Positions 3,776-56,550 of a DNA stretch of 64,000 nt are shown here, one piece after another (the stretch's first letter is position 1; each line of letters begins with the position of its first letter). The notes beneath the pieces were generated by a model that was given only the letters and a program-made list of their open reading frames with translations, had not been told where the DNA came from and did not search any database. Origin of the DNA: a virus; IMG/VR virus record IMGVR_UViG_3300037493_002747, positions 1 through 64,000 of that record; one strand, given 5' to 3'. The position numbers and the translations under genes are program-made.

Positions 3776-4509
3776 ACCAGTCGAATCTAATGGAATTTGA
3801 AAAGGAGGATTGGATTCATGATCTTCCTGAAAAGGGGGTTCACATATATTCACAGGTATGTCAAGATGGGCGTCTCGACTATATTTTTGAAAATGTGGGA
3901 ACCACCAACAAGATTTGTGTAGAATTTGGTTTCAACACAGATGTATTGACGGGTGGTTCCGGGGCCAATACTGCCAACCTAATACTCAACAAAGGATGGA
4001 CGGGGGTATTGTTTGACAGAGATTTTGAAAACCACTCTATCAATCTTTACAAAGAAACACTTACATGTGAAAACATAAGTGAGGTGTTCAAGAGATACGC
4101 CATACCACCCATCTTTGATTACTTATCCATCGACGTTGACAGTATCGATTTGTGGCTGATGAAAGCCGTGTTAAGTGGTGGCTTTAGGCCGAGAGTTATG
4201 ACGGTCGAATACAATTCCGGCTTTGATATAGGCACAAGCTTAACACTCAAAAAGCAAGGGTCGTTGGTTGGTGGTGCGGGGTATGGAGCATCATTACTGG
4301 CATTGGTAAGGGCTGCCGCAGAGTTCAATTATTCTCTGGTCTGTGTTGAAAGCGGACTAGACCTATTTTTTGTAGACAATGCGTTGCTGGCGGATTGCAA
4401 CATTCCAGACATATCCTCCTTTGAGAGCCACACAAAGATATGTTACCACGGGGGATTCACTCAAGAGATTTTGGCAGAATTTGTGGAGTATCCAGTGGTA
4501 GACGAGTGA
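3772..4509 (+). CDS. FkbM-type SAM methyltransferase
   Basis: A 245-residue protein whose ATG overlaps the methylase stop (ATGA). KICVEFGFNTD (about residue 47) followed by GWTGVLFDRD (about 79) matches the FkbM/Methyltransf_21 SAM-binding site, and DYLSIDVDSIDLWLM (about residues 120-134) is the second conserved block. These enzymes usually O-methylate sugars or small molecules. Codon usage returns to that of the rest of the phage, so the preceding methylase, not this gene, looks foreign. Confidence 0.7.
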   Translation: MNQSNLMEFEKEDWIHDLPEKGVHIYSQVCQDGRLDYIFENVGTTNKICVEFGFNTDVLTGGSGANTANLILNKGWTGVLFDRDFENHSINLYKETLTCENISEVFKRYAIPPIFDYLSIDVDSIDLWLMKAVLSGGFRPRVMTVEYNSGFDIGTSLTLKKQGSLVGGAGYGASLLALVRAAAEFNYSLVCVESGLDLFFVDNALLADCNIPDISSFESHTKICYHGGFTQEILAEFVEYPVVDE

Positions 4510-4515
4510 TTCTAG

Positions 4516-4544
4516 CCGTATTTTAGCTCACCTCCGGCAATGTA
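4516..4544 (+). promoter_or_regulatory. CCGTATT-N14-GCAATGTA element, copy 1
   Basis: CCGTATT at 4516-4522 and GCAATGTA at 4537-4544 are separated by exactly 14 bp. The element lies in the gap before the 4566 gene, with an AAGGAGATT ribosome binding site downstream. It is the first of nine copies in this window. Confidence 0.75.
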
Positions 4545-4565
4545 CTATTACAAGGAGATTGAGCT

Positions 4566-5063
4566 ATGAATACGGAAAACTATAAGGGTCGGGTTGTTGA
4601 GACGGGGACTCATGAGTATCGGATGAGCGACTACAGCGAGTTCGGTCGGTATGCCATCATTCTCTTGAACGATGGTACTTACTTCCGGGTTCAAGGTTAT
4701 GACCTCAAGGTCGAGGTAGATGCCTCTCCTGAGCAGGTTCAGGCGTACAAAGACCATGTTGCGGCTGCAAAGGCTGCTTCTATGGCCAAGATTGCAGCCG
4801 ACAGGGCTGAACTTGAGGCCAAAACTCCCAGAATTGGCAAGCTGGTTCGTGTCGTCAAGGGGCGCAAGGTGGCCATCGGCACGGAAGGTATCCTCTTCTG
4901 GATGAAGGAAATGACCTTCACTCCCCGGTTTCGGAATGGTTACAAGAAGGGTCCGGATACAGTCAAGATCGGGATTGCCTTGGATGATGCCAAGGATGCC
5001 CGTGGCCGGTTCGTCAACGTGGCGTGGAGCTACATCCAGAACATTGAGGTTGTGGCGGCATGA
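4566..5063 (+). CDS. Unknown protein with KOW-like segment
   Basis: A 165-residue soluble protein of unknown function. The middle is an alanine-rich helix (about residues 60-85), and GKLVRVVKGRKVAIGTEGILFW (about residues 95-116) resembles a KOW-type beta-barrel motif found in nucleic-acid-binding proteins. It is the first gene after promoter-like copy 1 and ends in an ATGA overlap with the next gene, so the two are probably cotranscribed. Confidence 0.65.
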   Translation: MNTENYKGRVVETGTHEYRMSDYSEFGRYAIILLNDGTYFRVQGYDLKVEVDASPEQVQAYKDHVAAAKAASMAKIAADRAELEAKTPRIGKLVRVVKGRKVAIGTEGILFWMKEMTFTPRFRNGYKKGPDTVKIGIALDDAKDARGRFVNVAWSYIQNIEVVAA

Positions 5064-5278
5064 AGTGGGTTGGGAATACACTTGTTCTATCTGATGGTAG
5101 CCTATTCACAGTCAACGAAGGCAATCTGGAACTTCGGGGGCAAGGCTGGGAGAGGCGGCGGAAGAAGGGTGATACCGAGAACACTGATTTGGCACGAATC
5201 TGTAGGTTTGAAGACGACGGCATGGCACGGAAAATCGCAGAAATGTTGGGGGAAATGGTAGAGGACACCGTATTCTGA
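5060..5278 (+). CDS. Small unknown protein
   Basis: A 72-residue charged protein beginning in an ATGA overlap with the gene upstream. It has a basic WERRRKK stretch near residue 31 and an acidic C-terminus. No family is recognised. Its stop codon lies inside the next CCGTATT element. Confidence 0.6.
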   Translation: MKWVGNTLVLSDGSLFTVNEGNLELRGQGWERRRKKGDTENTDLARICRFEDDGMARKIAEMLGEMVEDTVF

Positions 5279-5296
5279 CGGACTTCCGGCAATGTA
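5268..5296 (+). promoter_or_regulatory. CCGTATT-N14-GCAATGTA element, copy 2
   Basis: CCGTATT at 5268-5274 and GCAATGTA at 5289-5296, spacer 14. It overlaps the stop of the preceding gene. The ATG of the next gene begins at the last base of the box, with another ATG six bases on, so the transcript would have no room for a leader. Confidence 0.75.
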
Positions 5297-5850
5297 TGAG
5301 TATGAAAGTCACAGACATCAATCGTTATTACAGGAGTCCCAATACCACAACAGTGACTTGGGCATATCTCGAAAACACACTAGCTAGTTACGCCGATACA
5401 TGCGGTCTTCCTGGATGTCTTGGTCTGAATCTTGACCCAGACTTTCAGCGGGGACACGTTTGGTCTGAAGACAAGCAGATCGCATTTGTCGAGTTTTGCC
5501 TTCGTGAAGGGCAATACTCTCGTACCATTTTGTTCAATCACCCCGGATGGAATGATGACTATGCAGGGGAGATGGTCCTAGTGGACGGGAAACAACGGCT
5601 GGAGGCAGTCCGGAAGTTCATGCGGAACGAATTGCCCATCTTCGGTGGGAATCGGTTGAATGACTTCGATAATCCAAAGAGACTTTTGCGTACGAATGGG
5701 GCACATTTATTGTTCGGCATCAATACCTTGCAGACTCGCCGGGAGATTTTGGAGTGGTACTTGCAGATCAACACTGGTGGTGTTGTCCATACGGCTGAAG
5801 AGATTGCCAAGGTTGAGAGAATGCTTATCTCTGAGAATGGAGTTCAATGA
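5296..5850 (+). CDS. DUF262 / GmrSD-type ParB-like domain protein
   Basis: A 184-residue protein with the DUF262 signature: an N-terminal helix region, the PDFQRGHVWSEDKQ box (about residues 48-61) and LVDGKQRLEAVRKFM (about residues 95-109), equivalent to the DGQQRL motif of GmrS/ParB-like nucleotide-dependent proteins. In larger relatives this domain binds nucleotide and works with an HNH effector; here it stands alone. The start (5296, or 5302) is placed by the match of the N-terminus to the family. No Shine-Dalgarno precedes it, and it begins at the edge of a promoter-like element, suggesting leaderless translation. Confidence 0.75.
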   Translation: MSMKVTDINRYYRSPNTTTVTWAYLENTLASYADTCGLPGCLGLNLDPDFQRGHVWSEDKQIAFVEFCLREGQYSRTILFNHPGWNDDYAGEMVLVDGKQRLEAVRKFMRNELPIFGGNRLNDFDNPKRLLRTNGAHLLFGINTLQTRREILEWYLQINTGGVVHTAEEIAKVERMLISENGVQ

Positions 5851-6581
5851 AGACGTTACTGTCTGTCGATTGGGACTACTTTGTGCCTGAGCTACAGGAA
5901 TACGATCTTACACATTCTGAGTCACTGATCTTCTTGGACATGATATGGCGTAGTAGGAGTGGTCTACTGGATCACATCAAGACGACTGGGACAGAGGAAG
6001 GCTTCTGGGATCGTCTGGGAGGCTCTATGGACGGGGTAGGGCCAACATACGTTTCTGACTCCCACATGTACGCCTACCGCCTCCTGAGTGTCGTGGATCA
6101 CGTTGTATTGGTAGATGCTCACCATGACTGCTGGAAAGATGGTCGTAAGGACCATGTTTACTGTCACAACTGGTTGAGGGTGTGGTTAGCTGGTGGTAAG
6201 CATCGCAGGGTTACTTGGGTTCAGCCGGAATGGTCGAAAGGGATATTCGAGGTACCCAAGGACTTGCGGAAGCGGGTCATCATCGAAAGCGAGATCAAGG
6301 GCAAGATTGACATGGTTCATGTTTGCCGGAGTGGCTGTTGGACGCCTCCATGGTTGGACAAACAGTTCATTCAATTCGTTGATTCGCGCAAGTCGTTGAA
6401 GATCAACATGCAGGGCGAATTGCCATGGAATCCTATGGCGGAGCGATGGACTGAGGAGGATTTGAAGGAGTTGCGGGATCGTGAGGATCGGATTCAGGAT
6501 GCCATTAGGGGGATCAAGACAGGGGTTATGTCGAGTTCCTCATTTTTGGAAGCTAGGGTGGAATTGGCGGCTTCGGCATGA
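5847..6581 (+). CDS. Putative arginase-fold (UPF0489-like) hydrolase
   Basis: A 244-residue protein opening with SVDWDYFVPE and carrying VLVDAHHDCW (about residues 87-96). Paired acidic and histidine motifs of this kind coordinate metals in the ureohydrolase/UPF0489 fold, hence the tentative name. The substrate is unknown. The start overlaps the preceding stop (ATGA), and the end overlaps a small cysteine-rich gene. Confidence 0.5.
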   Translation: MKTLLSVDWDYFVPELQEYDLTHSESLIFLDMIWRSRSGLLDHIKTTGTEEGFWDRLGGSMDGVGPTYVSDSHMYAYRLLSVVDHVVLVDAHHDCWKDGRKDHVYCHNWLRVWLAGGKHRRVTWVQPEWSKGIFEVPKDLRKRVIIESEIKGKIDMVHVCRSGCWTPPWLDKQFIQFVDSRKSLKINMQGELPWNPMAERWTEEDLKELRDREDRIQDAIRGIKTGVMSSSSFLEARVELAASA

Positions 6582-6751
6582 AAATGAGGAAAAGGCGTTG
6601 TCGTTGGAGGGCCATTACTAGGGAGTGGAATCATCTGGAAGAACGCATGGGATTCTATTGCAGAAATGAAAGATGTCGTTGTTATCCAGGTCTATGTATT
6701 GAGGATTGGAGGGTGAAGAAGGTATTTTGCGAGCATTATTGCTCTGTGTGA
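6578..6751 (+). CDS. Small cysteine-rich basic protein
   Basis: A 57-residue frame starting in an ATGA overlap with the gene before it. The product has a very basic N-terminus (MKMRKRRCRWR) and seven cysteines, including CRNERCRC and a terminal CEHYC, which suggests zinc binding. No family is recognised. Tight coupling and its place directly before a promoter-like element support it as a real gene. Confidence 0.6.
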   Translation: MKMRKRRCRWRAITREWNHLEERMGFYCRNERCRCYPGLCIEDWRVKKVFCEHYCSV

Positions 6752-18130: not shown

Positions 18131-18143
18131 TCTTTGATATATG
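18131..18143 (+). promoter_or_regulatory. TTCTTTGATATTC-type element at the tmRNA start
   Basis: TTCTTTGATATAT immediately precedes the GGGGACG 5' end of tmRNA at 18144, as expected if this motif acts as a -10-like box with initiation about 7 bases downstream. This anchors the position of the motif relative to an RNA end. Confidence 0.55.
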
Positions 18144-18554
18144 GGGACGAGTGGTTTCGACGAGTGTTATTGAAACTGGTCGACATGCCGAGGACACAGG
18201 TGGGCCTCGTAAATCATCCTGTAAAAAAACAACTGCCAACACTTTTGGCAAGGTGATTCGTGGTTTCTTTGGAGTGGCTGCTGAGGCTACTCCGATGCTT
18301 GCCGCTGCCTAAACAGGCACACCTCCAAAACTCCGGAGTTTCTATGACAACCGGATGAGGATCAAAGAGAATAGATGACGGTCTGCAAAGACAGGCGATG
18401 CCGGGAATGAGACGCACCGGGGCGGATAGTCGAAGACATCCCTGAAAGAAGGGATAGACCAAGTCCGTGGTCGAGAAACATCGTGACGAAGCATGTGTAT
18501 GTTCAGTTGATTTATTATTCGGACAGGGGGTTCGACTCCCCCTCGTCTCCACCA
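18144..18554 (+). ncRNA. ssrA: Transfer-messenger RNA (tmRNA)
   Basis: A complete 411-base tmRNA. The 5' end GGGGACG pairs with CGTCTCC near the 3' end; the third pair is G-U, the alanine identity signal G3-U70. GGGGG-TTCGACT-CCCCC is a perfect T arm, and ACCA is encoded (18551-18554). CATGCCGAGG and GGCCTCGTAAA are the conserved stem preceding the tag region in bacterial tmRNAs. The resume codon is GCC at 18235. It would rescue stalled ribosomes and tag nascent chains, either supporting or redirecting host trans-translation. No smpB gene is visible in this window, so host SmpB is presumably used. Confidence 0.95.
18235..18312 (+). other. tmRNA tag-peptide reading frame
   Basis: Twenty-five sense codons from the resume GCC to TAA. 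The peptide begins A-N-T-F-G-K-V-I and ends P-M-L-A-A-A. It keeps the AN start and the hydrophobic LAA-type protease signal of bacterial tags but is longer than the 10-11 residues common in well-known bacteria and ends in three alanines. Confidence 0.8.
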
Positions 18555-46841: not shown

Positions 46842-49800
46842 ATGTCGGATTGGACCAGTTACGAAAAAGAGCGATTCTATCATATCGCTCGACAAGCAGA
46901 AATCGTGGTCATCAAGGACCGTGATGTCATCGCGTTTATCCCCGAAGCCATAGGGCTTGCAGCTACACAGGGGATTGATCTTTATCGTAAAAGTGATGAG
47001 ACATATTCCATGTGGAAGTCTACTCCGCCTGTTGCAGTAGAAGCTTCCGAAAGATTGCTTTGTTGGACTAGAGTTTCAGGAACAGAGATGGTGTCGGGTT
47101 ATAGATGGGTTCCTTATATTACTTCCGACAACCCGGACACTACAAAGATATTGCCATTGCGGGAAGTGTTTTCCCCACGAGTAACCTATGACAGAACTAG
47201 CAATATGTTACATCTGTGGTTCTGGACGAATGTCAAATGGGATTACACGGGAACGGAATATTCCGAGGACAATATTTTCAAGATTGGGTACAAAGACTAC
47301 AAAAGCTTTTTTGACAATGCCGCTAACAAGATGACGTGTAAACGAGTCTTGTGTTATGCGGTAGGACAGTTTGGAAATTACTGGATAAAGGGCGGATTGA
47401 TTGATGGTTATCAAGGATTTTTGGGGCTACAAGGTGTCCAGAATGATCAGTATGACATTATTCCTGTTTTCACTCGACCGACGATCATTACAAATTTTTC
47501 GGTAACGAGTTTGGATGACGCTCCCGGACTTATTACTGATGGATGGTACGAGATTCAGGGTATCCAAAGTGGCTTTCAAGGATTCCAAGGCTTTCAGGGA
47601 TTTCAAGGCTTTCAGGGTTTTCAGGGCTTTCAAGGATTTCAGGGTTTTCAGGGATTTCAAGGATTTCAGGGATTTCAAGGATTTCAGGGATTTCAAGGAT
47701 TTCAGGGATTTCAAGGCTTTCAGGGCTTTCAAGGATTTCAGGGGTATCAGGGTTTTCAAGGATTCCAAGGCTTTCAGGGATTTCAAGGATTTCAGGGTTT
47801 TCAGGGATTTCAAGGCTTTCAGGGTTTTCAGGGATTTCAAGGCTTTCAGGGTTTTCAGGGATTTCAAGGCTTTCAGGGTTTTCAGGGTTTTCAGGGATTT
47901 CAAGGCTTTCAGGGTTTTCAGGGATTTCAAGGCTTTCAGGGTTTTCAGGGATTTCAAGGCTTTCAGGGTTTTCAGGGATTTCAAGGCTTTCAGGGTTTTC
48001 AGGGATTTCAAGGCTTTCAGGGTTTTCAGGGGTATCAGGGCTTTCAAGGATTTCAGGGGTATCAGGGATTTCAAGGCTTTCAGGGATTTCAAGGCTTTCA
48101 GGGTTTTCAGGGATTTCGAGGCTTTCAGGGTTTTCAGGGATTTCAAGGATTTCAAGGTTTTCAGGGCTTTCAAGGCTTTCAGGGTTTTCAGGGATTTCAA
48201 GGATTTCAAGGTTTTCAGGGCTTTCAAGGCTTTCAGGGTTTTCAGGGGTATCAGGGTTTTCAGGGGTATCAGGGCTTTCAAGGATTTCAGGGGTATCAGG
48301 GTTTTCAGGGGCTTCAAGGATTTCAGGGTTTTCAGGGGCTTCAAGGATTTCAGGGTTTTCAGGGGCTTCAGGGTTTTCAAGGGTTTCAGGGTTTTCAAGG
48401 AAATCAGGGATTTCAGGGGAATCAGGGTTTCCAAGGGAATCAAGGATTTCAGGGGAATCAGGGATTTCAGGGGAATCAAGGTTGGCAGGGCAATCAGGGA
48501 TTTCAGGGGAATCAAGGTTGTCCGGCGTGCATGACTGCCAGCGATATCTATCTACCAACATCAGGGTCGGGGTATGCATACCCCGACGTGAATAGTGATT
48601 GTTGGTCAGCAGGAGAGATAATTTGCATATCGGTTAGTGGGAAAGTAGATCAAGGCACCATCTCGTACATTAATGAGGGTTCTATTCGATTTACACTTGA
48701 TACTAATCCTTCGACGGGGGGGTACTATTCAAATGGAACCATATGTCATGGTGGTTGTGCTATCGGAATGCAGGGTTTTCAAGGAAATCAGGGATTTCAA
48801 GGCAATCAGGGATTTCAAGGGAATCAGGGATTTCAGGGGAATCAGGGATTTCAGGGAAATCAGGGAAATCAGGGAAATCAGGGCAATCAGGGCAATCAGG
48901 GAAATCAGGGAAATCAAGGGAATCAAGGGAATCAAGGGAATCAAGGGAATATGGGGTGGCAAGGTCCGCAAGGTTTTCAGGGATTTCAAGGGAATCAAGG
49001 ATTTCAAGGGAATCAAGGAAATCAGGGATGTTCGGCGTGTGTTAAGGGTGAGTTCAATGATCAGGGATCAGGCAATATCTTTATCAGGGTCTTTACACCT
49101 GATTCGGCAGATTGTTTCATTACTGGAGAAACGATTTGTATTTCTGATAATAGTAGTGGAGTAGTTTTATGTTCCGCAACAGTTACCAGCATTTATTTGG
49201 AGAACAACGGTTTCTACGGCAATAATACTAATCCTTCGACGGGGGGGTACTATTCAAATGTAACTGTATGTCATGGTGGTTGTGCTATCGGGAATCAGGG
49301 ATTTCAGGGGAATCAGGGATTTCAGGGGAATCAGGGGAATCAGGGATTTCAGGGCAATCAGGGATTTCAAGGGAATCAAGGGATACAAGGGAATCAAGGT
49401 ATTCAGGGATTTCAAGGATTTGCAGGATGTGCGGCATGTGAGCAGACGCACAGCTCTTCTCAGGGCATCAGCATACCAACATCGGGGACTGGTAGTGCCC
49501 AGTTGGATTATACTCACAAAGATTGTTGGACTGTAGGAGAAACAATATGCGTATCGGTTAATGGGGGGGTATCATATCAATGTTCCCTTACGAGTAAGAG
49601 TGAGATTGGCGGGTTTGATATCTATTTTACACCTAATACTTATCCTTCTGTCGCCATAAGCAATGCTGGTGGAATGGTATGTCATGGTGAATGTGTAACC
49701 CAAGGACTTCAGGGATTTCAGGGGAATCAAGGTTGGCAAGGGAATCAAGGATTTCAGGGGAATCAGGGCTGGCAAGGAAATCAAGGTTTCCAAGGAAATC

Positions 49801-50126
49801 AGGGATTTCAGGGGAATCAGGGTTTCCAAGGGAATCAAGGCTGGCAAGGGAATCAAGGATTTCAGGGGAATCAAGGCTGGCAAGGGATACAGGGGCTACA
49901 GGGATTTCAGGGCTGGCAAGGAATACAGGGTCCGCAAGGGATACAGGGGATACAGGGGCTACAGGGATTTCAGGGCTGGCACGGAATACAGGGAAATCAA
50001 GGGCCACAAGGGTACCAAGGCCCTGAGATGACATTTGCAACGATTGGAACACCTGTGTATATTCTTGGCAAGGATGCGGGCGGGAACATAGGATGGGTTG
50101 CAGTACAGACATTTACATGTCCATAG
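46842..50126 (+). CDS. Collagen-like tail fibre protein with Cys modules
   Basis: A 1094-residue protein. Residues 1-243 form a globular head. Then come four Gly-X-Gln arrays: the first (about 244-557) almost pure GFQ, later ones GNQ, GWQ and GIQ. Between arrays lie three related modules of about 85 residues, each opening with C-x-x-C, containing C-W/F-x-x-G-E-x-I-C and closing with CHGGC or CHGEC. The C-terminus is a short cap (GTPVYILGKDAGGNIGWVAVQ). Gly-X-Y periodicity suggests a trimeric, collagen-like stalk, but prolines are almost absent, so stability would rest on Phe/Gln packing. Probably a host-binding fibre. Confidence 0.75.
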   Translation: MSDWTSYEKERFYHIARQAEIVVIKDRDVIAFIPEAIGLAATQGIDLYRKSDETYSMWKSTPPVAVEASERLLCWTRVSGTEMVSGYRWVPYITSDNPDTTKILPLREVFSPRVTYDRTSNMLHLWFWTNVKWDYTGTEYSEDNIFKIGYKDYKSFFDNAANKMTCKRVLCYAVGQFGNYWIKGGLIDGYQGFLGLQGVQNDQYDIIPVFTRPTIITNFSVTSLDDAPGLITDGWYEIQGIQSGFQGFQGFQGFQGFQGFQGFQGFQGFQGFQGFQGFQGFQGFQGFQGFQGFQGFQGFQGYQGFQGFQGFQGFQGFQGFQGFQGFQGFQGFQGFQGFQGFQGFQGFQGFQGFQGFQGFQGFQGFQGFQGFQGFQGFQGFQGFQGFQGFQGFQGFQGYQGFQGFQGYQGFQGFQGFQGFQGFQGFRGFQGFQGFQGFQGFQGFQGFQGFQGFQGFQGFQGFQGFQGFQGYQGFQGYQGFQGFQGYQGFQGLQGFQGFQGLQGFQGFQGLQGFQGFQGFQGNQGFQGNQGFQGNQGFQGNQGFQGNQGWQGNQGFQGNQGCPACMTASDIYLPTSGSGYAYPDVNSDCWSAGEIICISVSGKVDQGTISYINEGSIRFTLDTNPSTGGYYSNGTICHGGCAIGMQGFQGNQGFQGNQGFQGNQGFQGNQGFQGNQGNQGNQGNQGNQGNQGNQGNQGNQGNQGNMGWQGPQGFQGFQGNQGFQGNQGNQGCSACVKGEFNDQGSGNIFIRVFTPDSADCFITGETICISDNSSGVVLCSATVTSIYLENNGFYGNNTNPSTGGYYSNVTVCHGGCAIGNQGFQGNQGFQGNQGNQGFQGNQGFQGNQGIQGNQGIQGFQGFAGCAACEQTHSSSQGISIPTSGTGSAQLDYTHKDCWTVGETICVSVNGGVSYQCSLTSKSEIGGFDIYFTPNTYPSVAISNAGGMVCHGECVTQGLQGFQGNQGWQGNQGFQGNQGWQGNQGFQGNQGFQGNQGFQGNQGWQGNQGFQGNQGWQGIQGLQGFQGWQGIQGPQGIQGIQGLQGFQGWHGIQGNQGPQGYQGPEMTFATIGTPVYILGKDAGGNIGWVAVQTFTCP
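47571..48515 (+). repeat. Nine-base GFQ codon repeat array
   Basis: About 105 tandem 9-bp units of GG(A/C/T)TT(T/C)CA(A/G), with occasional GYQ, GLQ or GNQ units. Because the unit has few stop-like triplets, all six frames stay open here for hundreds of codons; only the frame of the fibre gene is meaningful. Higher-order near-identical blocks indicate expansion by unequal recombination. Confidence 0.9.
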
Positions 50127-50830: not shown

Positions 50831-50885
50831 TTCCACAAGACCTGACGCATTGGTATATAATGAGGTGGTATTGCTGGAGGTCTAT

Positions 50886-53800
50886 GTGGCTTTTGTAAGT
50901 ATTGATTTGTCGAATTCTTTGGTTGTGCATGATGCCTACGAGCAAAGGACGGCTATTGCCGATCTTGGTGGGTATTGGGACGCCCAAAACAAGGCTTGGC
51001 GTATCGTATTCACGATTGCCAATTTGGAAGCACTCCTTGACGCTATTCCCGACATTTCAACATCGGAAGACTTGGCTGTAAAGGTCAAGGATCAGATGGA
51101 TAAGGAAGCCAAGCTGGAAAAACTTCGGGTGATGTCAAAGCAGGATACGCAGGTGTGTCTGCGTATTCCGGGTATGAAGCTTTCACTATACAACTACCAG
51201 CGGCTTGGCGTTATGTATGCGGCAACTAATCGTGTAGGACTATTGCTGGCGGATGAAATGGGACTAGGGAAAGGGACAACCATTGATAGCCAAGTATTTA
51301 CGACTTTTGGAAAGGTTAGAATCGGATCGTTGAAGGTGGGCGACGAGGTAGTAGGCAAGGATGGAAAACCTCATAACGTGATTGGAGTTTACCCCCAGGG
51401 AATGCGAGAAGTTTACCGTGTGTGGTTCAACGATGGGTTCTATCTTGACGTGGACAGTTCTCACTTATGGGAAGTAAGGTCTAACAACCAGCACAGCAAG
51501 GTGAGGAAAACGTCTGGGGTCGTCCTTTCGATGGAACAACTTCTGGACAAGGACGGTGTTGCGGAACGTGTCGGTGAAGGAAGGAATAGCGGTAAGACCT
51601 ACAAGTTCAAAACCTACTACAAGAAAACGAACGGGAACAACTCATGGGGAATACCGATGGTTGACCCCATCCAGTTCGTACACCGCACCATAGACATAGA
51701 CCCGTACCTCCTCGGAGTCTGGCTTGGCGATGGACATATTATGAAAACAGGGTATGTAAACCTAGTAATGCTAAAGGCAGACCTTGCTGATATGAATGTT
51801 GGAGGCAAGATTGGAAGAGTAGACGCATCACACATGGAAGCTCGTCTTTTCAATACACATAAACAGGAGTTGGTCAATCTTGGTTTGAACGGAAAGAGAG
51901 CTTGGGAGAAGTTTATACCTGATGACTATAAATACAATTCCGAAGAAGTTAGACTTGCGGTGATTCAAGGATTGATGGACACAGACGGACACGCATCGGA
52001 TTGTGCGACCGAGTATTCGACCAGTTCTAAGCAGTTGTGCGACGATGTGGTTGAGATTGTGCAGACGCTTGGTGGTATCGCAAGGGTCAGGTCCAGGATT
52101 CCACGTTACTGGTATAAGGGAGTAAAGAAGACGGGAAGGACGAGTTACAGTGTCAATATCAAGTTGCCTCCTAGTATTGTTCCGTTCCGTCTACCAAGAA
52201 AGGTTGTGGACTATGATAAGTGTGACAAGTATAGTCCCGAGCGATACATTTGTAATATAGAAAAACTCGCAGAAAAGAAAGAAACGGTTTGCATCTCAGT
52301 CGATGCTCCTGACAATCTTTATGTCACGGAACATTGTATCGTTACCCACAACACCCTCCAGGCCATTGGTACAGCAATGTTCTTAAAGGCTTCGGATGGG
52401 GCGAAGAAGGCACTTATTGTTACGCCAGCATCACTCAAGTTTAACTGGCCATTGGAGATCGAGAAGTTTACAGATGAGAAGTACGTGGTCATTGATGGTA
52501 CGCCGGATGAGAGAGTTGCGCAATGGCTTCGGGATGATGTGTTTTTCTATGTCGTCAATTTCGAGCTGTTACTGGAAGATTTGTTTGGAGGCAGGAAGTT
52601 CAGGGAGAAGAAGGGTGAGTCCGATGAGGACAGGCAGAGAAGGTTGGACAGGCATGAAAAGATTTCTACTAAAGCGAAACAGAGGCGGGGGATACTGACG
52701 ACAGTTAGGAATAGGGTATGGGATGTAATAGCGGTGGATGAATGTTTTCCGTATGGAACGATGATCGAAACGGATAAAGGACGGATGAGTATTGGAGATG
52801 TCGTATCTCAAAAATTGCCAGTGTCCGTTTTGTCTTGTGATTTTTCAAGGAATGTGTCATCGTATCGACGTGTTGTTAGATGGATGGAAAAATCTATGTC
52901 TGGACACCTCGTGGAGGTGACGCATGAAAGAGGAAGTTTTGTCTGTACTTGGAATCACAAAATCTGGACAGATGAATGGGGATATATCAAAGCGGGTGAA
53001 GCCACGAAGTATGGTGAAGCGCATTTGCGAGTTTTGCCATCACGAGTTCGATGCACCTCGCAAGGGGAAGTCAACACCGAGATTTTGTTCGGTGGTTTGT
53101 TCCGGAAGATTCAGACAGATGTGTCAGGACACCGTGGCGAAACAAGTGGCAGCAAGAACGATGCCAAAGATAGTGTTCAATTGTATGGAATGCGGTCGAG
53201 AGTTTGTGGTCAGGACGACAAAAGAGCAGGAGAGGAGATTTTGTTCGAGGAGGTGTGTGGCGATCTGGAGGTCAAAAACAGAGGATCGGAAAGACAGAAT
53301 GTTGAAGATGCAGGTGGCCTGCGGGTTAGTAACGAAGGGAAAGCCGAATCTGAGATTCTCCAAGTTTATGACAGAGAAGAATCAAGACCCGGTATTCCGA
53401 CAGAAGGTGATGGAGGGGGCAGCAAAGTGGAGGGAGACACATCCATCATTTCTTGTGAGGGGCGGGAAACCATTCATAACGAAGCCGCAGAGATTGTTGG
53501 CGGAAGCTCTTGGAGAAGAATGGGAGATGGAATACAAGGTCTCCGACAAGAGAATGGCAGATGTGTTGGTGAGTCCACCTCGGTTCTATCAGATAGACAT
53601 TGCAAATGTGGGAATGAAGATTGCTGTAGAGGTGGACGGAAGAACCCACAGGATGACGAAGTGGAAGATAATCGATGCTCGGAAGGAGAAGGCTTTGTCT
53701 TATCTCGGTTGGAAAGTATTAAGGTTCTGGAACGAAGAGATTTTGAAAGACTTGGACTTGGTAGTCCGGAAAATCTCCGAGTCTATAATCTCGAAGTAGA

Positions 53801-54842
53801 AGCTGATACGGACGACGATCATTGTTATGTTGCTGATGGTGTCCTAGTTTCTAATTGTCAAGCACTCAAGCATCATTCGTCCACCCGGACTCAGAATGTG
53901 CTGAACTTAAAGGCCAAGTGTCGTATGGCTTTAACAGGGACTCCGATGGATGGAAGGCTTGAGGAATTGCACAGTTTGATGCAGTTTGTGGCTCCCGGAC
54001 TTCTCATGTCCAAGACTCGGTTTTTTCAGAGGCATGTTGAGACGGACTTTTGGGGTAGGGTGACTGGGTACAAGAGAATGGGAGAGGTATCTCAGAAGAT
54101 TCAACAGTTCTTTCTTCGCAGGTTGAAGAGGGACGTTTTGAAGGACTTACCGGACAAGGTTTATGAGAATCGGCTAGTGTCCTTGACGGCTGAAGAACAC
54201 AAAATTTACAAGGCTCTGGCGGAGCAAGGGCATGAGGCGACAGAAGATGTTTTGGCAGTAGTTTCAGTTATTCGTTGTAAGCAGTTTTGTAATTATCCTC
54301 AGATGGTGGATGCGTCGTGTACGACAACGTCAAAGATGGATTCCTTCAGAGAGGTTCTGGATGAGGTTGTGGTCCAGAATGGTCATAAAGCATTGGTGTT
54401 CAGTCAATACAAAGAAATGCTGAATATCCTTGTCCCTGAATTGGAGAAGATGGGTATAAAGTACATGAGGATCGACGGAGACACTCCTCCAATAGAGCGG
54501 GCTTCGATGCAGAAGAAGTTCAATGAGGATAAAAGTCTTGATGTGATGATTGGAACTGAGGCTATGTCAACAGGGCTGAATTTCCAGTCAGCGGATTATG
54601 TTATCAACTATGATGACAATTGGTCTCCGGCTATTATGGCGCAACGTGAAGATAGGTGTCACAGGAATGGGCAGAGGAATGTGGTTACGGTAGTGAACTT
54701 CATTTGTAGAGACACGATTGAAGAACGTATCCGTGGAGTCATCTACGCGAAGAACAGGGTTACGGCACAAGTCCTTGGAGATGAGACTGATGATATGGTC
54801 TTGAGAAGACTTGGTCCAAAAGATGTTTGTCAGTTGTTGTGA
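50886..54842 (+). CDS. SNF2-family (SF2) DNA helicase containing two inteins
   Basis: The precursor has 1318 residues. Removing inteins at 51273-52352 and 52743-53855 leaves a helicase of about 587 residues. Joined motifs: DEMGLGK+TLQAIG (Walker A), VTPASLKFNW (Ia), AVDE+CQALKH (Walker B), ALTGTPMDG (III), KALVFSQYKEML (IV), GTEAMSTGLNFQSADYVINYD (V) and AQREDRCHRNGQ (VI). SNF2 ATPases of this size move along DNA in replication or recombination. The GTG at 50886 is chosen because GGAGG (50876-50880) lies 5 bases upstream; the open frame extends to 50850. Both inteins interrupt ATPase motifs, so the helicase is inactive until splicing. Confidence 0.9.
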   Translation: MAFVSIDLSNSLVVHDAYEQRTAIADLGGYWDAQNKAWRIVFTIANLEALLDAIPDISTSEDLAVKVKDQMDKEAKLEKLRVMSKQDTQVCLRIPGMKLSLYNYQRLGVMYAATNRVGLLLADEMGLGKGTTIDSQVFTTFGKVRIGSLKVGDEVVGKDGKPHNVIGVYPQGMREVYRVWFNDGFYLDVDSSHLWEVRSNNQHSKVRKTSGVVLSMEQLLDKDGVAERVGEGRNSGKTYKFKTYYKKTNGNNSWGIPMVDPIQFVHRTIDIDPYLLGVWLGDGHIMKTGYVNLVMLKADLADMNVGGKIGRVDASHMEARLFNTHKQELVNLGLNGKRAWEKFIPDDYKYNSEEVRLAVIQGLMDTDGHASDCATEYSTSSKQLCDDVVEIVQTLGGIARVRSRIPRYWYKGVKKTGRTSYSVNIKLPPSIVPFRLPRKVVDYDKCDKYSPERYICNIEKLAEKKETVCISVDAPDNLYVTEHCIVTHNTLQAIGTAMFLKASDGAKKALIVTPASLKFNWPLEIEKFTDEKYVVIDGTPDERVAQWLRDDVFFYVVNFELLLEDLFGGRKFREKKGESDEDRQRRLDRHEKISTKAKQRRGILTTVRNRVWDVIAVDECFPYGTMIETDKGRMSIGDVVSQKLPVSVLSCDFSRNVSSYRRVVRWMEKSMSGHLVEVTHERGSFVCTWNHKIWTDEWGYIKAGEATKYGEAHLRVLPSRVRCTSQGEVNTEILFGGLFRKIQTDVSGHRGETSGSKNDAKDSVQLYGMRSRVCGQDDKRAGEEILFEEVCGDLEVKNRGSERQNVEDAGGLRVSNEGKAESEILQVYDREESRPGIPTEGDGGGSKVEGDTSIISCEGRETIHNEAAEIVGGSSWRRMGDGIQGLRQENGRCVGESTSVLSDRHCKCGNEDCCRGGRKNPQDDEVEDNRCSEGEGFVLSRLESIKVLERRDFERLGLGSPENLRVYNLEVEADTDDDHCYVADGVLVSNCQALKHHSSTRTQNVLNLKAKCRMALTGTPMDGRLEELHSLMQFVAPGLLMSKTRFFQRHVETDFWGRVTGYKRMGEVSQKIQQFFLRRLKRDVLKDLPDKVYENRLVSLTAEEHKIYKALAEQGHEATEDVLAVVSVIRCKQFCNYPQMVDASCTTTSKMDSFREVLDEVVVQNGHKALVFSQYKEMLNILVPELEKMGIKYMRIDGDTPPIERASMQKKFNEDKSLDVMIGTEAMSTGLNFQSADYVINYDDNWSPAIMAQREDRCHRNGQRNVVTVVNFICRDTIEERIRGVIYAKNRVTAQVLGDETDDMVLRRLGPKDVCQLL
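51273..52352 (+). mobile_element. Intein 1 (class 3-like) in Walker A, with LAGLIDADG endonuclease
   Basis: A 360-residue intein between K and T of the Walker A lysine-threonine pair. Residue 1 is glycine, not Cys/Ser. The class 3 signature is present: Trp in block B (SSHLWEV), Cys in block F (VCISVDAPDNLYV) and Thr in block G (IVTHN, followed by extein T). Class 3 inteins use the block F cysteine instead of residue 1 to start splicing. Two LAGLIDADG motifs (LLGVWLGDGHI and IQGLMDTDGHA) give a homing endonuclease. Confidence 0.85.
52743..53855 (+). mobile_element. Intein 2 (class 1) in Walker B, overlapped by a separate gene
   Basis: A 371-residue intein between DE and CQALKH. It starts with Cys (CFPYGTMIETDKG), has block B (SFVCTWNHKIWTDEWGYIKAGE), block F (VYNLEVEADTDDDHCYV) and ends GVLVSN followed by extein Cys, all canonical. 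The middle (about residues 110-345) has no LAGLIDADG or HNH motif in this frame and looks compositionally odd; in the +1 frame the same DNA encodes a different endonuclease. The frame stays open over the entire overlap, as it must for splicing. Confidence 0.85.
52924..53799 (+). CDS. Vsr/DUF559-like endonuclease nested out of frame in intein 2
   Basis: A 291-residue protein in the +1 frame relative to the helicase, with its own ribosome binding site (GGAGGT at 52913-52918, ATG at 52924). Two zinc knuckles: CEFCHHEFDAPRKG...FCSVVC (about residues 35-60) and CMECGREF...FCSRRC (about 82-106). The C-terminal nuclease core has MADVLVSPPRFYQIDIAN, KIAVEVDGRTH and KALSYLGWKVLRFWNEEIL, the Vsr/DUF559 (EDxHD-like) fold known from phage homing endonucleases. 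Its reading frame is the one that looks like a conserved protein, while the intein frame tolerates it. It probably mobilises the intein. Confidence 0.85.
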   Translation: MKEEVLSVLGITKSGQMNGDISKRVKPRSMVKRICEFCHHEFDAPRKGKSTPRFCSVVCSGRFRQMCQDTVAKQVAARTMPKIVFNCMECGREFVVRTTKEQERRFCSRRCVAIWRSKTEDRKDRMLKMQVACGLVTKGKPNLRFSKFMTEKNQDPVFRQKVMEGAAKWRETHPSFLVRGGKPFITKPQRLLAEALGEEWEMEYKVSDKRMADVLVSPPRFYQIDIANVGMKIAVEVDGRTHRMTKWKIIDARKEKALSYLGWKVLRFWNEEILKDLDLVVRKISESIISK

Positions 54843-54849
54843 GGTATTT

Positions 54850-56550
54850 ATGTCGAGCTTCCATGACACAGTAGAACTTGAACGTGCCTTTCTTCGTGCG
54901 GTTACGAGTGGCATCATTATGGCCCGTACCTACATAAATCAAGGCAGGGAGGAGATGTTCACATCCGATCCTCGAAGATTCATATTTGCCATAGCGGTTA
55001 TGACTTTGAATGAGTCGAACTCTCTTTTATCTAAGCAGATATACGAATATGAGGTGAGTTCAAGACTGGGTGAAAATGATGCGGCAGACTTCATTGGCGA
55101 ATGGAACATGATTGATGGGGTGGCGTCATATGATTCACCAGAGGTACTTTTGGCGAAGATTCGTGATGCGGAGATTGGCCGTAGGGCATTGAGGTTGTCT
55201 GAAAATGTTGTCGATATGCTGACAAAGGGCAATATCAAGGATGCCGTTTCATTTCTAAAGCGTGAGGCGATGATGATTGGTGGTGGTCCAAAGGATGACC
55301 GCCCGGTAATACCATTGTCAGACATTTCCATTCGACTGAAATTGTATCAGGATAGGAAGGAAAACCCGGAGAAGTACCAAGGATTGAAGATTGGATTCAA
55401 GACATTCGATCAGTGGACTGGTGGTTTGTTTCCTGGTGAGTTGACCCTGATTGCTGGCGTTACTGGATTGGGCAAATCGACTCTTTGTCGTTCGATTGCC
55501 AAGGGGATTGTGACGCTCAATGGGGCGAAGAATGTTCTTCATGTCGCTAATGAGGAATATCTGGAACAGGTTCAGTATAAATATGATGCCTTGTTTATGG
55601 GGATTCCGTATACAGACTTCAAGTATGCTAGACTTACGGACGATGCCTTGGACCGATGGCAGAAGCAGATGCAGAAGGGAATGCAGGAATCCGGGATGGG
55701 GCAGATTTTCACGAAGGAGGTTCCGGCGTTTACGGATGTGTCTTTGGTGGAGCAGCAATATCGTATCTTGGAGAATCGTGGGATACCTATTCATGCTATC
55801 ATTATTGACCATCTTCCCCATGTGAAGCCGATTCAACAGTCGTGGGGAGAGAATGATGAGCGGTTTAAGGCGGCGGCAGATTGTAAGGAGTTGGCTCGTA
55901 GTCTTCGGGTGCCGGTAGTCACTCCTACTCAGGCGGCTACAGAGGTGGAGAAGAAACAGGCTAAGGGTCAGAGAGCCAGCAAGATGGATGTTTACGGGTC
56001 CAAGGGGCAAGTCCATGTAGCGAACACGTTTCTTATCATAACGTACAAGGGGACGGATGATACGCAACAGGATATACCCGACTATCTTCGGGATGTCTAC
56101 TGGTTGTGTGATGCTAAGAAGAATCGTGATGGACCTCCGTTCTATTTCATGGCGAAGCATCAGGTAAAGGATGGTCAGGTAACAGAGATCGCTGATCCGA
56201 GCAAGAAACCCAGCAAGGAGGCCAAGGATGGGGTAGAAAAGGCTCTGAATGAGGCGGAAGGTACTGGTAAGCCTCCAGTGGCGAAGACGGCTTCTGTGGT
56301 TGATCAGACGCCTGTGGTTCTCAATACTGGTCTTAGGGACGCTCAAATGGACTATGTTGAGGCTATTGATGGTGGAGGGGACAATGAAGATGTTCCCTCA
56401 GTTTCTGGACAAGAGGTCCAGGGTATTGATTCGGTCATATCGGAAGCGGAGCAGGATACTGTAAAGGAAAGGCCAGAATCTGCGAATTCCGCACCGAAAT
56501 CACTAATGGATAGAATTCGTGCCTCAAAGATTGCAATCCCCGGTGTATAA
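54850..56550 (+). CDS. DnaB-type replicative helicase
   Basis: A 566-residue protein. An N-terminal helical domain (about 1-140) is followed by the RecA-like core: LKIGFKTFDQWTGGLFPGELTLI, Walker A GVTGLGKST (203-211), Walker B AIIIDHLPHV (about 315) and an arginine-finger region near KGQRASKMDVYGSKG. The first 450 residues fit DnaB; the last 110 form an acidic, low-complexity tail with no known counterpart. The ATG at 54850 follows a GTGAGGT site; a frame from 54811 overlaps the helicase upstream. It would unwind the replication fork with the primase at 57951. Confidence 0.88.
   Translation: MSSFHDTVELERAFLRAVTSGIIMARTYINQGREEMFTSDPRRFIFAIAVMTLNESNSLLSKQIYEYEVSSRLGENDAADFIGEWNMIDGVASYDSPEVLLAKIRDAEIGRRALRLSENVVDMLTKGNIKDAVSFLKREAMMIGGGPKDDRPVIPLSDISIRLKLYQDRKENPEKYQGLKIGFKTFDQWTGGLFPGELTLIAGVTGLGKSTLCRSIAKGIVTLNGAKNVLHVANEEYLEQVQYKYDALFMGIPYTDFKYARLTDDALDRWQKQMQKGMQESGMGQIFTKEVPAFTDVSLVEQQYRILENRGIPIHAIIIDHLPHVKPIQQSWGENDERFKAAADCKELARSLRVPVVTPTQAATEVEKKQAKGQRASKMDVYGSKGQVHVANTFLIITYKGTDDTQQDIPDYLRDVYWLCDAKKNRDGPPFYFMAKHQVKDGQVTEIADPSKKPSKEAKDGVEKALNEAEGTGKPPVAKTASVVDQTPVVLNTGLRDAQMDYVEAIDGGGDNEDVPSVSGQEVQGIDSVISEAEQDTVKERPESANSAPKSLMDRIRASKIAIPGV

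Follow-up and report, generated by a model that had tools for sequence, protein, structure and literature searches.

A candidate dual-frame intein: a homing-endonuclease-like gene nested out of frame between intein splicing halves in ATPase genes of phages and bacteria

To our knowledge, inteins either carry their endonuclease in frame or have none. This regularity is called into question by a 64,000-nucleotide stretch of viral DNA (IMG/VR record IMGVR_UViG_3300037493_002747, positions 1 to 64,000; hereafter, the window), in which motif II of an SNF2-type DNA helicase is interrupted by an intein whose middle is overlapped, in the +1 frame, by a nuclease gene. How does one reading frame remain open through another gene, and for what is each frame selected? 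The interpretation we favor, at a probability of roughly 0.86, is that of a mobile dual-frame intein: its homing endonuclease is encoded by a separate +1-frame gene placed between the splicing halves and is probably made by internal initiation.

The intein and the gene nested within it

The features on which the argument rests are these, in window coordinates, with a slash marking an intein junction:

50850 to 54842, plus strand: open reading frame (ORF) of an SNF2-type DNA helicase with two inteins (Pfam SNF2-rel_dom 6.4e-30, Helicase_C 2.3e-24)
52743 to 53855, plus strand: intein 2, the dual-frame intein, 371 codons, inserted at DE/C in helicase motif II
52743 to 53042, plus strand: N-terminal splicing half with Cys1, block A and the block B motif TWNH (i-E 3.5e-22 with an intein-N hidden Markov model (HMM) built from sequences that included the window)
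52913 to 52918, plus strand: Shine-Dalgarno (SD)-like GGAGGT, 5 nt before the nuclease ATG
52924 to 53799, plus strand: nested homing-endonuclease-like gene, +1 frame, 291 codons, with two zinc-knuckle CxxC...C pairs and a DUF559/I-Bth0305I-type nuclease domain
53046 to 53690, plus strand: intein-frame linker over the nuclease core, stop-free, unconstrained and predicted to be disordered
53691 to 53855, plus strand: C-terminal splicing half with RLESIKV, VYNLEVE (53781-53801) and GVLVSN, followed by Cys+1 (intein-C HMM i-E 1.9e-14)
53706 to 53727, plus strand: doubly conserved stretch, where the intein strand RLESIKV (53706-53726) coincides with the nuclease motif GWKVLRF (53707-53727)

An earlier reading of this DNA from its letters alone (the sequence-only reading) had proposed that the helicase frame stays open across a 291-residue ORF in the +1 frame, that the intein retains intact splicing ends, and that the nuclease has a start of its own. 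All three proposals were borne out. The helicase/intein frame is unbroken from 50850 to 54842, and Cys1 (52743), TWNH as the block B TxxH (52947-52958), Ser-Asn (53850-53855) and Cys+1 (53856) were all located. In an alignment of 38 inteins C1, H72 and N371 are invariant and T69 is conserved in at least 90%, a set of end motifs typical of class 1 inteins. An intein-free relative, locus L001, encodes an uninterrupted 583-residue helicase that matches the exteins of the window helicase (69% identity over the C-terminal part) and reads VDEAQ where the window has VDE/intein/CQ. As expected of an intein, the element thus interrupts a conserved motif at an exact position, and a homologue without it exists.

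AlphaFold2 models, computed from alignments that left out the loci of the annotated phage collection, predict that both intein ends form a confident HINT-like fold, with a predicted local distance difference test (pLDDT) score of about 95 over residues 1-100 and mostly 75-96 over 320-371. The ends are joined by a disordered loop of ~210 residues, and the low-confidence segment 102-315, most of it below 50, coincides with the nuclease overlap. Foldseek with this model retrieves the DnaE, RecA and DnaX inteins (best E 1.6e-6, probability 1), and a profile of 33 related inteins matches PDB inteins over two distinct segments, the Spl DnaX mini-intein among them (4.9e-23). The predicted structure is that of a HINT fold, and its splicing ends are of the type seen in class 1 inteins, the Spl DnaX mini-intein (PDB: 7cfv) included.

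The nested gene product matches DUF559 in Pfam (E 1.6e-13), and its profile recovers 3hrl (1.5e-12) and I-Bth0305I (PDB: 3r3p; 6e-4); the two zinc knuckles constitute its N-terminal half. The AlphaFold2 model of the nuclease (pLDDT 86) superimposes on 3hrl/3r3p with a template-modeling score of 0.72 of the target and a probability of 1.0, at a weak E of 0.017. Residues D225, E236, D238, H242 and D251 are invariant, and the catalytic-domain fold combined with the conserved D, E.D, H and D places the protein among the Vsr-like/DUF559 nucleases. With I-Bth0305I it shares this fold and the acidic and histidine residues; the latter differs in being intron-borne ("mobile intron protein" in the PDB) rather than nested in an intein. 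Stops within the nuclease profile match lie almost all at its edges, suggesting that decay of the nuclease is uncommon.

Recurrence of the nesting and selection on the two frames

A tblastn search with the nuclease against annotated phages matched 42 records, nearly all within genes annotated as helicases. Seven of these records, from Vibrio, Pseudomonas and Corynebacterium phages, were opened; in each, a helicase-like ORF continues uninterrupted through the match, which is offset from it by one base and carries no annotation of its own, only a helicase or a hypothetical protein being annotated there. Further loci came from nuclease-alignment scans of viral and bacterial contigs, which added 109 classified loci. 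The sequence-only reading had singled out homologues with intein-frame stops as the observation that would tell against it; these were looked for, and in 111 of the 117 nuclease-family loci, the window included, the nuclease is nested in a long open ORF, always in the same +1 frame. The nested loci reduce to 93 non-redundant clusters at 90% identity and span several ATPase families and many bacterial phyla. The frame relation common to these 93 loci implies that the nesting is old, and the invasion of a mini-intein proposed for the window was not a single recent event.

The host genes include SF2/ResIII helicases, SNF2 helicases, DnaX (25 loci), helicase-methylase fusions and strawberry-notch/DarB-like giants. 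Intein ends are recognized by motif on both sides in 100 loci (the automatic boundaries of L086 and L107 being misplaced), and in nearly all of these the junctions read DE/CF..GT ... VHN/C, at the Walker-B motif, or close variants such as DEAHHA/C. In some relatives, for instance L003, L041, L079, L080 and L112, a Pfam Intein_splicing match extends across the region of the nuclease. An independent HMM search of 786 genomes, drawn from the two phyla to which a cyanobacterial and a Chloroflexota locus belong, returned five full-length matches, four with the same nesting and the fifth with a recognized intein C end. Of the six un-nested loci, four are free-standing relatives; the others are a generic DUF559 gene and a split-intein locus (L108).

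Two further loci were noted in passing. L071 (2642-4744) holds a candidate dual-frame intein in a D12-class methylase ORF, with the junction HPVNE/CCPAGM, away from the usual ATPase motif II site. In Ktedonobacter racemifer, L174, from the same genome as L109, contains a second intein N-terminal match, TEGYDCLDRETEILTPQGW, on the minus strand (716-937) further along the helicase ORF, which suggests two inteins in one gene.

To quantify stop avoidance, synonymous codons were shuffled within each nuclease, keeping protein and codon usage. Across the 93 loci, 880 intein-frame stops are expected and none is observed, a zero that is partly built in because nested loci were chosen partly by ORF length; the figure of 111 in 117 is free of this selection. 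The third frame of the same loci contains 1597 stops against 1460 expected. For the window nuclease 13.0 intein-frame stops are expected on average, none is observed and none of 300 shuffles is open, while its third frame has 23 stops. The four free-standing relatives, the split-intein relative and the generic DUF559 relative have 6-23 stops in the equivalent frame. L047, L049, L074 and L088 were considered as counterexamples and set aside: all four fall in a single free-standing clade, have no clear intein ends and contain 8-14 stops in the frame equivalent to that of the intein. As the sequence-only reading had supposed, the openness of the intein frame is under selection; it is not due to chance.

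Substitutions were also counted by their effect in both frames (N, nonsynonymous; S, synonymous), the values being uncorrected proportions and not rate estimates. Over 22 disjoint pairs the nuclease frame shows purifying selection (NN/SN 0.37, 0.34-0.39), and the intein frame gives an NN/NS of 0.91 (0.85-1.00). When 40 pairs are divided by region, the intein-frame NN/NS is 0.96 over the nuclease core and 0.72 in the 3' tail, downstream of the GW motif; in this tail SN/SS is 0.38 (with few SS sites) and the constraint on the nuclease is relaxed to 0.65. Constraint on both frames thus appears in the last ~25-35 nuclease codons, and the 3' end of the overlap is doubly constrained. Over the core the intein frame shows no amino-acid constraint, so that its middle amounts to an empty linker that is kept open. 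The "true dual coding" earlier claimed, if taken to mean that both proteins are selected, accordingly stands at the edges but not over the core. Selection for a hydrophilic linker was rejected, as hydropathy does not differ from that of stop-free shuffles (z -0.15); the number of linker cysteines is likewise no different. A separate observation is that the linkers of the 93 loci are shifted toward acidity, their net charge having a mean z of about -1 relative to synonymous shuffles without stops.

Expression, rival explanations and mobility

How might the nuclease be made? Its best start codon is ATG in 79 of the 91 loci and typically lies 60-105 codons past the beginning of the intein; SD-like matches of at least 5 nt precede 49% of the starts as against 16% of control codons. 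The nuclease frame is closed upstream, within the intein, in 104 of 105 loci; in the window a TGA (52918-52920) overlapping GGAGGT shuts it one codon before the ATG, the open stretch beginning at 52921, and hence the nuclease is not the product of long upstream read-through. Together, the start-site data and the upstream closure make internal initiation the simplest route, by which the nuclease would be translated. Programmed frameshifting, which would instead make the nuclease an extension of the helicase-N/intein-N chain, could account for the constant +1 frame and for the half of loci that have no strong SD. Nevertheless, the upstream stops, the prevalence of ATG and the SD enrichment all speak against it, and common descent, together with the possibility of synonymous stop avoidance in that phase, accounts for the constant frame; we regard frameshifting as unlikely.

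The other explanations deny that one continuous frame is translated and spliced. If the overlap were degenerate or fortuitous, the nuclease being a relic and the open frame accidental or the intein dead, a linker frame devoid of amino-acid constraint would be expected, as is seen; but the stop avoidance across the 93 loci, the strong constraint on the nuclease and the invariant C1, H72 and N371 make this scarcely tenable. Removal at the RNA level, by a group I/II intron or translational bypass such that the intein frame is never read through the nuclease region, has in its favor that homing nucleases are often intron-borne. It is just as hard to sustain, given that stop avoidance would have no reason in an untranslated region and that no Rfam intron match is found in 51000-55000; a group I/II intron was rejected for want of a ribozyme core there. 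A split intein, with two half-proteins joined by trans-splicing and the nuclease between them, has a real counterpart in one relative. This is L108, a single metagenome-derived contig, with an N-half ORF (4427-5011) ending in a stop, a nuclease (4905-5672) and a C-half ORF (5537-6718), the nuclease overlapping both half genes of the fractured helicase; its gene order indicates that the open frame has apparently been lost and that the layout is that of a split intein. For the window this alternative was rejected as very unlikely, because the host gene is not broken: the frame is continuous here and in 110 other loci. Dassa et al. reportedly described, in 2009, split inteins in fractured genes together with Vsr-like homing endonucleases; in these, intein halves are said to flank a free-standing I-Bth0305I/Vsr-like nuclease, the host gene being broken in two and trans-spliced. 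The loci analyzed here differ in having one continuous ORF through the nuclease, and L108 bridges both layouts.

On the unrooted tree of the nuclease the DnaX inserts form one group, the other ATPase families are mixed, and a single clade holds all free-standing relatives; host family changes 17 times, compared with a shuffled mean of 55. Nuclease and intein-end distances agree (Mantel r 0.51; best of 999 permutations 0.12), and do so beyond permutation also inside host families, suggesting that intein and nuclease have largely moved together and appear to travel as a unit. The signs of homing are indirect, namely the constant insertion site, the empty allele and the recurrent switching between host ATPase families along the tree.

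Under the dual-frame intein interpretation, ribosomes reading the helicase would cross the loop and produce a long, disordered, functionally empty linker. The intein ends would fold as a HINT domain and excise the intein, and motif II would be re-formed by ligation of ...DE to CQ... in the helicase. A second set of ribosomes would initiate at the internal SD/ATG (52913/52924) and yield a free ~33-kDa zinc-finger/Vsr-like nuclease; alleles still lacking the intein would be cleaved by it at the conserved Walker-B codons, repair then copying in the whole intein. Selection on the host gene would keep the linker frame stop-free, and selection on the nuclease would keep its protein sequence. Several observations weigh against this interpretation. 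The penultimate residue of the window intein is Ser370 and not the usual His; most relatives have His, and Ser is common to several. The penultimate intein residue is known to vary, making this a deviation rather than an exclusion. The Pfam Intein_splicing profile makes no call on the window intein, but does so on relatives L003, L041, L079 and L112; about half of the relatives are without a clear SD of at least 5 nt; and the majority of loci are metagenomic.

Known systems and neighboring features

The closest published case found is the ShiLan domain (Arsenault, Gosselin & Gogarten 2025, PMC11855218), an out-of-frame HNH endonuclease without a splicing domain or detectable ribosome-binding site, reported in methylases and presumed to be retained in the protein. 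In both systems an open in-frame insertion in a phage gene hides an out-of-frame homing-type endonuclease, and the host-frame reading is disordered. The present loci differ in that intein ends, forming a complete HINT intein, surround a Vsr/DUF559-type nuclease, and in their spread over many ATPase families. No contiguous intein with an out-of-frame homing endonuclease was found in the literature searched, where ShiLan is the sole precedent located; that literature lacked most subscription papers, and this absence is no proof.

We consider it fairly probable that dual-frame inteins form a widespread class of mobile elements in which a homing gene and a splicing element overlap in one fixed phase, stops and frameshifts are purged because the host gene needs an open frame, and breakage of the frame gives rise to split inteins, so that dual-frame inteins would be plausible forerunners of fractured genes. 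They would represent a third, recurrent and unannotated intein architecture beside those with an in-frame or a lost nuclease, and would supply many candidate homing nucleases with the Walker-B motif as their target. They would also offer a large natural experiment in overlapping genes, with one frame selected only for openness, and a testable route between contiguous and split inteins.

The same helicase ORF carries another intein, separate from the dual-frame one:

51273 to 52352, plus strand: intein 1, in Walker A (GLGK/T), in-frame LAGLIDADG type (LAGLIDADG_3 4.4e-6)

Intein 1 starts with Gly (GTTIDSQ) and its relative in L010 with Ala (ALAEGTE), neither being Cys or Ser; its splicing start is possibly non-canonical. 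The phage collection contains no close DNA relatives of the window. The phage encodes a tmRNA at 18143-18554, with the tag ANTFGKVIRGFFGVAAEATPMLAAA, and a tRNA-Met gene comes after it. A 1094-residue collagen-like protein with long QGFQGF/QGNQGF repeats is encoded at 46842-50126, and a gene similar to it sits upstream of the intein-free helicase in L001.
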